Below are positions 26,967 to 31,298 of a stretch of DNA of 64,000 nt, in pieces. The DNA lies in contig NZ_BAAAHE010000007.1 of NCBI RefSeq assembly GCF_039525035.1, forward strand, positions 1 through 64,000. The letters run 5' to 3'. The notes below the pieces were generated by a model, which saw only the letters and a list, made by a program, of their open reading frames with translations, searched no databases and was not told the DNA's origin. The position numbers and the translations under genes were made by a program. The DNA comes from Sporichthya brevicatena (lineage in GTDB: Bacteria; Actinomycetota; Actinomycetes; Sporichthyales; Sporichthyaceae). The first letter of the stretch is position 1. The number at the start of each line of letters is the position of its first letter.

Positions 26967-27016
26967 AAAAAAGGGTGACACCCCTTACTGCGCAGTAAGG
27001 GGTGTCACCCTTTTTT
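26967..27016. terminator. Perfect 50-bp palindrome, bidirectional rho-independent terminator
   Basis: Six A, then GGGTGACACCCCTTACTGC, are mirrored without mismatch by the other half, ending in six T. Each strand therefore reads a 19-bp GC-rich stem plus U-run. It serves gdhA on the plus strand and the TrmB-type regulator on the minus strand, which converge here. Confidence 0.95.
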
Positions 27017-27049
27017 CACAGCGGGGCGCGGTGTCGCGGCGGGGGTGGC

Positions 27050-29322: not shown

Positions 29323-30072
29323 ATGGATCTCGGACTCTCCGGCCGCCGCGCGGCCGTCGGCGCCGCGAGCGCCGGACTCGGGTACGCCTGCGCCGAGGCT
29401 CTCGTCGCCGAGGGCGCTCAGGTCGTGATCTGCGGGTCGGACGCCGGCCGCGCCGAGGCCGCCGCGAACAAGCTCGGCGGCGGGACGCAGTGGCTCGTCG
29501 CCGACCTCGCCGACCCCCTCGGGGCCGAGCGCTTCGTGCACGAGGCCAAGGAACGGCTCGGCGGGCTCGACGTCCTCGTCGTCAACGGCCCCGGTCCCGC
29601 GGCGGGCACCGCGCTCGACACCCCGGCCGACGCGTACCAGGCCGCGCTCGACCGCAGCCTGCTCGCGGTCGTGCGCCAGTGCCTCGCGGCCGTGCCCGAC
29701 ATGCGTGCGCAGCAGTGGGGCCGGATCGTCGCGATCACCTCGCTCGGGGTCCGCCAGCCGTACGCGAACCTCGCGCTCTCCAACGCCGCCCGCGCCGGCG
29801 CGACCGGCTTCCTGCGCACCCTCGCCACCGAGGTCGCCGCCGACGGCGTCACCGTCAACTCGGTGCAGCCCGGTGTCCACGCCACCGACCGCGTCCGCCG
29901 GGTCTTCGACGAGCAGGCCCTCGCGGCCCAGCTCTCCGGGGTCCCCGCCGGCCGCCTCGGCGAACCGGCCGAGTTCGGCGCGCTCGTCGCGTTCCTCTGC
30001 TCGAACCTCGCCGCGTACATCACCGGCGCCGCGATCCCCGCCGACGGCGGCGCCAACCGCGCCCTCCAGTAA
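29323..30072 (+). CDS. SDR-fold protein lacking the catalytic Tyr and Lys
   Basis: The 249-residue protein keeps the cofactor motif GAASAGLGYACAEAL and the C-terminal SDR ending CSNLAAYITGAAIPADGG. Where a classical enzyme has Y-x3-K, this one reads LALSNAARAG, so both catalytic residues are replaced; the upstream Ser (AITSLGV) remains. It belongs to the beta-ketoacyl-reductase-like subgroup known to lack the canonical tetrad. It may bind NAD(P) or acyl-CoA without ordinary reductase chemistry, or use other residues. It is co-transcribed with the ferredoxin. A palindrome cluster follows its stop. Confidence 0.82.
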   Translation: MDLGLSGRRAAVGAASAGLGYACAEALVAEGAQVVICGSDAGRAEAAANKLGGGTQWLVADLADPLGAERFVHEAKERLGGLDVLVVNGPGPAAGTALDTPADAYQAALDRSLLAVVRQCLAAVPDMRAQQWGRIVAITSLGVRQPYANLALSNAARAGATGFLRTLATEVAADGVTVNSVQPGVHATDRVRRVFDEQALAAQLSGVPAGRLGEPAEFGALVAFLCSNLAAYITGAAIPADGGANRALQ

Positions 30073-30081
30073 CCCCGCCTT

Positions 30082-30116
30082 CCCCTGCACAAGAGATGTC
30101 ATCTCCAGTGCAGGGG
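30082..30116. repeat. GAGATGTCATCTC palindrome, copy 1
   Basis: CCCCTGCAC-AA-GAGATG-T-CATCTC-CA-GTGCAGGGG is a near-perfect dyad nine bases after the SDR stop. Three copies lie in this 215-base convergent gap. Likely a terminator; also possibly a repeat-family element. Confidence 0.75.
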
Positions 30117-30120
30117 TGGG

Positions 30121-30148
30121 TGCACAAGAGATGTCATCTCCAGTGCAG
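30121..30148. repeat. GAGATGTCATCTC palindrome, copy 2
   Basis: A direct copy of the first element with a shorter left arm (TGCAC), four bases after it. The core GAGATGTCATCTC and the right flank CAGTGCAGGG are identical. Confidence 0.75.
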
Positions 30149-30159
30149 GGCGTCGGGGC

Positions 30160-30235
30160 CGGGTGCCCGATTGCGCCGAGTGCGCAGATCAGCACCGGTC
30201 GCGGCGCGGGCACCCGTGCTCAACTGCGCACTCGG
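30160..30235. repeat. Interleaved inverted repeats
   Basis: Arms occur in the order A-B-A'-B'. A is CGGGTGCCCG (30160-30169) and A' CGGGCACCCG (30207-30216). B is CCGAGTGCGCAGATCAGCAC (30176-30195) and B' its reverse complement with three mismatches (30216-30235). The two stems cannot be nested and would form a pseudoknot-like or alternative fold. It is framed by copies 2 and 3 of the palindrome. Confidence 0.6.
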
Positions 30236-30249
30236 TGCAGATCGGCTCA

Positions 30250-30283
30250 CCCTGCACTAGAGATGTCATCTCCAGTGCAGGGG
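30250..30283. repeat. GAGATGTCATCTC palindrome, copy 3
   Basis: CCCTGCAC-TA-GAGATG-T-CATCTC-CA-GTGCAGGG lies five bases past the stop of the minus-strand amidohydrolase. It can terminate that gene just as copy 1 terminates the SDR. Confidence 0.75.
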
Positions 30284-30287
30284 GCGG

Positions 30288-31298
30288 TCAGGGGAGGCGG
30301 AGGAGCCGGGCGGCGTTGGCGGCGAGGGTCGGGGCGAGGGCGCCGGGGCCGTCGGAGGCGCCGGAGTCCCAGCCCGCGAAGTTGGTGCCGAACACCAGGC
30401 GCTCGGTGCCGGCGTGGGAGACGAGCAGGTCGAGCGAGCCCGCGTCGTGGACGTGGGTGTCGAACCACAGCTGCCGGTAGTAGTGCGCGAAACCGTTCTC
30501 CCGCAGCGCTTTCGAGGCCCACGGCCGGACCTCGACCGCGCGGGCGAGCCGGCCGGCGAGGAACGCGGCCGCCCCGCCGCCGTGGCTGATGCACACGTCG
30601 AGGCCGGGGTGCCGCTCCAGCACGCCGCCGCAGACGAGCGCGGCGACGGCGAGCGTCTCGTCCCGGGCGAAGCCGAACAGCAGGTCGAGGTCGAACCGGC
30701 GCAGCCGTACGTCGTCCGGCGGGCCCTGCTCGCCGAGCGGGGTCGGGTGCACGAACAGCGGGACGTCGAGCTCGACCAGCGCCTCGTACAAGGGGTCGAG
30801 CGCGGGGTCGTCGAGCGTCCGCCCGGCCGGGTCGGTGTCGATGTACGCCGCACGCAGGCCGAGGTCGCGGACGCTGCGCCGCAGCTCGGCGATCGCGGCG
30901 GGCACGTCCTGCATCGGCAGCTGGGCCGAACCGAGCAGACGGTCGGGGTGCTTGCCGACGAGTTCGGCGAGGGCGTCGTTGTGAGTGCGCGCGAACCCGA
31001 TGGCCGCGTCGGCGTCGAGCCGGCCGAAGTAGGTCAGCGGGTTCGGGGAGAGCAGCTGGACGTCGATGCCGGCCGCGTCCATCGCGGCGAGCCGGACGTC
31101 GACGTCCATGAACGGCGAGCCGCGGTAGCGGACGCCGCGCAGCACGTACTCGCCGACGCGGTAGAAGGGCGTGCCGTCCTCGGCGACGCCGAGCTCCGGT
31201 CCCGCCGCCCCCGCGGCGCCGAGGCTGACCTCGAGCACCGCGTGGGCGTGGACGTCGACGACCCGCGTGGAGCCTGAAGCTGACGCGACGTCAGACAC
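30288..31298 (-). CDS. Amidohydrolase family 2 (ACMSD-like) metal-dependent hydrolase/decarboxylase
   Basis: The 336-residue TIM-barrel protein begins with the metal motif VVDVHAHAVLEV. It contains GIDVQLLSPNP, HPDRLLGSAQLPMQD, the His ligand in PLFVHPTPLGEQGPP, CISHGGGAAAFLAGRLARA and the late acidic region near LVFGTNFAGWDSG. The plan matches 2-amino-3-carboxymuconate-6-semialdehyde decarboxylase relatives that decarboxylate or hydrolyse aromatic-ring products. The usual final catalytic Asp (GTDFP type) reads GTNFAGWD here, so metal ligation may differ. Its start overlaps the previous gene by eight bases. It is last in the Mo-hydroxylase operon. Confidence 0.82.
   Translation of the reverse strand: MSDVASASGSTRVVDVHAHAVLEVSLGAAGAAGPELGVAEDGTPFYRVGEYVLRGVRYRGSPFMDVDVRLAAMDAAGIDVQLLSPNPLTYFGRLDADAAIGFARTHNDALAELVGKHPDRLLGSAQLPMQDVPAAIAELRRSVRDLGLRAAYIDTDPAGRTLDDPALDPLYEALVELDVPLFVHPTPLGEQGPPDDVRLRRFDLDLLFGFARDETLAVAALVCGGVLERHPGLDVCISHGGGAAAFLAGRLARAVEVRPWASKALRENGFAHYYRQLWFDTHVHDAGSLDLLVSHAGTERLVFGTNFAGWDSGASDGPGALAPTLAANAARLLRLP

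Follow-up and report, generated by a model that had tools for sequence, protein, structure and literature searches.

A dispersed, probably mobile REP-like palindrome family in part of the genus Sporichthya, found after stop codons, within proteins and upstream of some DUF222-HNH genes

Two convergent genes, one putatively for an SDR-type oxidoreductase and the other for an amidohydrolase-like protein, face each other in the window, by which is meant the whole 64,000-nt stretch of Sporichthya brevicatena DNA analysed here (Table 1). The gap between them holds three palindromes, the first beginning 9 nt past the end of the oxidoreductase gene (30072, + strand) and the third ending 4 nt short of the stop codon of the amidohydrolase-like gene (30288, − strand), and a hairpin block lies between the second and the third; all three had been picked out by an earlier reading of the letters without database searches (the sequence-only reading), and both the sequence and a repeat finder confirm them. 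They come in sizes of 34-35 nt and about 28-30 nt, and in each of them outer arms add 7-11 pairs to an inner GAGATG-T-CATCTC, with mismatches adjacent to the core of the form CACAA/CAGTG or CACTA/CAGTG. Within the whole window the 13-mer GAGATGTCATCTC occurs without mismatch only in this gap (30082-30283). The predicted RNA hairpin of copy 1 has an energy of −22.8 kcal/mol on the + strand and −24.9 kcal/mol on the − strand, and the 218-nt gap folds far better than its shuffles on both strands (z of −8.7 and −10.8).

Table 1. Genes and repeat features at the convergent gap, in window coordinates
Feature	Coordinates	Strand	Description
SDR-type oxidoreductase gene, putative	29323-30072	+	ORF list and gene call; family name read from translation
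Palindrome copy 1	30082-30116	+	Type CCCCTGCACAA-GAGATGTCATCTC-CAGTGCAGGGG; 11-position outer arm containing two mismatches
Palindrome copy 2	30121-30148	+	7-position outer arm; start-to-start spacing to copy 1 of 35 nt
Central block	30160-30239		Interleaved inverted repeats A/A' and B/B'
Palindrome copy 3	30250-30283	+	Type CCCTGCACTA-GAGATGTCATCTC-CAGTGCAGGG
Amidohydrolase-like gene, putative	30288-31298	−	ORF list; family name read from translation

The central block was singled out by the sequence-only reading for two inverted repeats in the order A-B-A'-B', which would not nest. This order is there, with A at 30160-30169 (CGGGTGCCCG), B at 30172-30187, A' at 30207-30216 and B' at 30224-30239, but B and B' are part of a longer nested inverted repeat of 28 nt (30172-30199 with 30212-30239), and the minimum-energy fold of the block is a single long hairpin (30172-30239) in which A and A' go unused. 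The block is present twice in the congener G001, where A/A' is retained in one of the two, and so the pseudoknot-like order, though present, points at most weakly to a functional feature. The 28-nt inverted repeat is itself a low-copy repeat, with about five paired genomic copies at a spacing of 52-53 nt, and the hairpin block has further copies on contigs C20 and C45 of the same genome. Between the two central blocks of G001 (L060:8173-8313) another repeated pair is seen, containing CTTCCTTCTCCC and AAAGCGC.

The palindromes belong to a much larger set. A genome search with GAGATGTCATCTC, which the sequence-only reading had proposed as a check of its repeat-element idea, bears that idea out, giving 170 exact copies in the genome from which the window comes (G000, 5.2 Mb), split 87 to 83 between the strands, against none for the reversed control and a whole-genome chance expectation of 0.12 under a first-order model taken from the window. 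Among 39 relatives searched, the congeners G001 and G002 have 77 copies and one copy respectively and the remaining 37 have none, so that in the genomes searched the family is confined to part of the genus Sporichthya. Copies were examined with their flanks for part of 100 of the 170 cores in G000 and, in G001, for about 30 of 50 located among the 77. Scans of the genome_contigs and viral_contigs collections gave no match, with a first pattern stricter than the palindrome family, and no palindrome family of its own was seen in the 260 kb of G002 that were scanned. No report of the GAGATGTCATCTC family was found in a literature made up mostly of papers outside subscription, the core as a text string bringing up one unrelated human-genetics paper. 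A second dispersed palindrome, AAAGGGTGACACCCCTTACTGCGCAGTAAGGGGTGTCACCCTTT with the arm AAGGGGTGTCACCC, lies at 26967-27044 of the window, its arm matching 214 times in G000, 181 times in G001 and once in G002; often found next to a GAGATGTCATCTC palindrome, it has a T-rich tail and the appearance of a repeated bidirectional terminator of the classical kind.

Comparison of 76 copies from G000 and 30 from G001 shows conservation extending to the 17-bp core TGGAGATGTCATCTCCA, the 13-mer inside it being the search key and thus invariant by construction, and variable sequence further out. The outer arms vary yet often pair, as in TGCACTG/CAGTGCA, CCCACTG/CAGTGGG, TTCGTTG/CAACGAA, GCCGTTG/CAACGGC and CCCGGTG/CACCGGG. 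Across 112 distinct copies, related ones among them not being independent, complementarity of the pairs 9, 10 and 12 positions out from the centre reaches 54, 67 and 66% (means of 200 shuffles 41, 52 and 41%, maxima 52, 62 and 51%), each with two or more pair types, and at the other distances from 7 to 20 pairing does not rise above the shuffle maximum. Numerous copies lie in tandem or inverted arrays, with a commonest start-to-start spacing of 36-38, and many array members have unpaired arms. At L023:1390-1520 tandem 18-nt units of GAGATGACATCTGCACAA/TG form a degenerate array of this core that resembles a product of slippage.

Such a core could be read as a double-stranded, operator-like site for a DNA-binding protein, be it a nucleoid protein, a topoisomerase or a regulator. 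The two base pairs flanking the searched core are indeed far more conserved than the outer arms and the arrays have a tandem period of 36-38 bp, as this reading would have it, but selection by an exact 13-mer makes the conservation of the core partly built in, and the covariation of the arms reaches beyond it. How the copies lie relative to genes bears on the matter as well. Genes were called by a codon-usage script in 41 stretches (the window and L031-L070), and the sample of 46 clusters, 24 from G000 and 22 from G001, falls by the gene caller into 16 convergent, 17 codirectional and one divergent, with 12 within genes. The caller missed a DUF222 gene at L048, so that one "convergent" cluster is really codirectional, and two clusters of L060 share one gap; with these corrections convergent gaps are enriched (p=1e-4) and divergent ones depleted (p=4e-5), the p-values before correction having been smaller (6e-6 and 3e-5). 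By hand count, 14 of the 17 codirectional clusters (the number before the L048 correction) are closer to the stop upstream than to the start downstream. Where asymmetric copies have a single gene upstream, they point one way in six cases and the other way in three, too small a sample to show a preference. A bias to 3' ends and in-frame genic copies are unexpected of an operator, as is the presence of only one of the 34 intergenic clusters in a divergent gap, and the protein-site reading seems to us unlikely.

Hairpins following stop codons may act in RNA. The family resembles intrinsic terminators in having a strong hairpin after stop codons and also between convergent genes, but differs from them in lacking a T-tract and in having copies inside coding sequence. 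That the structure is more than a plain intrinsic terminator, as the sequence-only reading had it, holds up, for a terminator scan of the gap gives no candidate site and none of 160 palindrome flanks has a T-tract. Its suggestion of a structured RNA stands in part: the covarying outer arms and the location after stop codons are in keeping with it, whereas the gap belongs to no known Rfam RNA family, its matches being to miRNA models only and below the gathering score. On one account the palindromes are bidirectional terminators working without a U-tract, homogenised by gene conversion and otherwise immobile, and a hairpin such as those of the window would end both convergent transcripts. The siting past stop codons and in convergent gaps fits such an account, as do the strength of the hairpins on either strand and the covariation of their arms; it has more difficulty with the absence of T-tracts from the 160 flanks, with the 12 of 46 clusters that are genic and in frame, and with the AAGGGGTGTCACCC-arm palindromes and their T-rich tail, which already look like the classical terminator here; it is a possible explanation that we would put forward only tentatively.

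The genic copies are apparently tolerated as protein. In all 12 genic clusters the reading phase is 0 or 1, the encoded peptides including EMSSP and GDDIS, and phase 2, which brings a TGA in one orientation, was not seen among them; tandem spacings are a multiple of three in six of six cases within genes vs three of 25 between genes (p=1e-4). In the tilS gene of G001 (tRNA-lysidine synthetase, L066) two cores 36 nt apart lie within an insertion of 14 residues that is missing from the orthologues of G000, G003 and G004, and against the solved structure 3a2k a gap of 10 residues falls at the same place. As the relatives of this species lack the insertion, the palindrome family moved after the species split, and the tilS orthologues with and without it form a natural pair in which the effect of the insertion on the protein could be measured. 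An acyl-CoA dehydrogenase (L038) has a similar gap of 10 residues against 6wy9, and the site in a methyltransferase gene (L033) is common to G000 and G001, missing in G003 and G004, and ambiguous in G002. In two AMP-forming ligases, one per species (L041 and L059), a palindrome stands shortly before the conserved loop FTSGTTGEPK or FTSGSSAEPK.

Turnover is also seen between genes. The comparison of copy number that the sequence-only reading suggested for strains, made here between species, finds G000 and G001 differing at the window gap itself, where G001 carries two central blocks with a single palindrome at either side, copy 2 being absent at the orthologous place. An array of three cores in G000 (L036) has no counterpart to any of them in G001 (L063), which carries one core where L036 has none, and several further sites are common to both species and differ in number or arms. 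Neither target-site duplication nor clean excision was seen at the sites compared, where divergence blurs the insertion sites. Quasi-palindrome correction and replication slippage might by themselves multiply palindromes in place, with no mobile step, and would account for tandem arrays, perfected arms and differing copy numbers at shared sites; we consider it improbable that they suffice, as the same core recurs in scores of unrelated locations and is found at new positions in just one of the species.

Mobilisation of REP elements is attributed to RAYT transposases. These elements, to which REPINs also belong, are GTAG-tagged and RAYT-associated. The Sporichthya family is like them in consisting of short palindromic hairpins (20-40 bp) in more than 100 copies and in clustered units (PMC3733652, PMC2817692), mostly extragenic with a bias to convergent and codirectional intergenic sites, and in having alternative complementary stems and some genic copies (PMC3733652). 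Unlike REP elements it is found in an actinobacterial genus and has no GTAG tag, which occurs in at best two of 112 copies at any fixed offset, and G000 (completeness 99.5%) gave no match for a RAYT gene (Y1_Tnp, PF01797) in a search positive in five of 14 named control genomes. With CGTC REPs and the palindromic elements of Rickettsia (RPE) it shares the lack of a known dedicated transposase and in-frame copies inside unrelated proteins, which in those elements are frequent (PMC3733652, PMC10969869), but a CGTC tag is likewise missing (at most four of 112 copies at any fixed offset), and RPEs are longer, at about 150 bp. Lacking a GTAG tag and a detected RAYT gene, two features that define the RAYT-linked class, and also the CGTC tag of the other class, the family is described here as a REP-like variant that falls in neither class.

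We therefore judge it likely that the three palindromes of the window gap come from a family of dispersed, mobile palindromic repeats akin to REP elements in part of Sporichthya. Copies might spread as short DNA hairpins and persist at the least harmful sites, directly past stop codons and in protein loops. Transcription could turn them into bidirectional hairpins at 3' ends, which might, with no need of a U-tract, terminate transcripts or shield the ends of mRNAs. The family combines recent movement and in-frame copies in conserved proteins with no detected RAYT, and a different multi-copy enzyme family adjoins it.

That enzyme family is DUF222-HNH. Some palindromes stand at the end of a repeated stretch of 1.5-2 kb encoding a DUF222 protein with a C-terminal HNH domain, although in a Pfam scan of three of the proteins HNH reached the cut-off in that of L070 only, those of L078 and L130 giving DUF222 only. 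DUF222 matches number 16 in G000 and 31 in G001, and membership of one DUF222-HNH subfamily (at least 74% identity in the best segment), tested for all 16 of the former and 21 of the latter, is found for six G000 genes and for nine among the 21 G001 loci. An exact core lies upstream of five of the six and five of the nine (10 of 15 in total), 113-217 nt before the matched N-terminus and in one orientation throughout; two more subfamily genes carry a 10-base part of the core, and the other ten G000 DUF222 loci have no exact core. For comparison, a core lies at most 300 nt upstream of 22 of 700 called genes, a background biased upward since the stretches were chosen for cores. At least four of the G000 subfamily genes have a G001 orthologue, so that the 15 genes amount to about 11 sites, six of them with an exact core, and the sites L082, L118 and L121 are without a palindrome. 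Two empty sites keep the palindrome, one species having palindrome and unit and the other the palindrome alone between the same flanks (L055/L212 and L117/L207, the palindrome of L117 being a degenerate form), and at L082/L200 it is in neither species. DUF222 genes of G002 have no upstream palindrome, the nearest DUF222 protein among the loci tested being 52% identical, and at DUF222 loci of other genera one of eight examined has a palindrome upstream, with no pattern.

A role for the DUF222-HNH enzyme is a hypothesis drawn from where the palindromes stand, which way they point and their occurrence together with the genes in a few genomes. In the most speculative part of our proposal this multi-copy nuclease, with the palindrome fixed upstream of its genes, would be the partner that moves or recognises the family. 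Put in full, the REP-like satellites would depend on a DUF222-HNH nuclease in place of RAYT, which would recognise the palindrome at the 5' edge of its unit, the unit moving between palindromic sites and the enzyme spreading or maintaining the solitary copies, the in-frame ones included; as a whole this we hold to be rather doubtful. A narrower view takes the palindrome as merely the 5' edge or operator of a DUF222-HNH mobile unit, and the solitary copies as unrelated terminators sharing the core by chance or conversion. It would explain why the palindrome keeps one place and one direction before the gene, and the 3' end of the unit is sharply shared as well (TGAGGCTCCCGGGGCG), but the chance expectation of 0.12 and the full 27-nt sequences common to solitary and unit copies leave this view little credence.

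Standing beside a multi-copy enzyme gene is again a likeness to REP elements (PMC3733652), with DUF222-HNH here instead of the enzyme gene found there. The neighbouring genes, as distinct from the palindrome, also agree with the REP13E12 (13E12) family of mycobacteria in having DUF222 and an HNH domain and in being multi-copy, DUF222-HNH genes being dispersed repeats there too (PMC10589994). Unlike in REP13E12, a palindromic satellite accompanies the genes here, in one subfamily only; for DUF222-HNH genes, REP13E12 included, none was found in a literature again consisting mostly of papers outside subscription. If the proposed partnership is true, an unrelated enzyme would here underlie a system of the RAYT/REP kind, and the widespread 13E12/DUF222 genes could have found a function; a causal link would mean a testable role for a large and uncharacterised actinobacterial gene family, that of REP13E12 in mycobacteria. 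An AlphaFold model of the DUF222-HNH protein was set aside, its pTM of 0.40 being too poor for assigning a DNA-binding or transposase fold; Foldseek with this model gave no match at E 0.001, and PADLOC no match. Judging from the sequence tails at L048, L079, L119 and L121, some DUF222-HNH units end beside putative tRNA genes.
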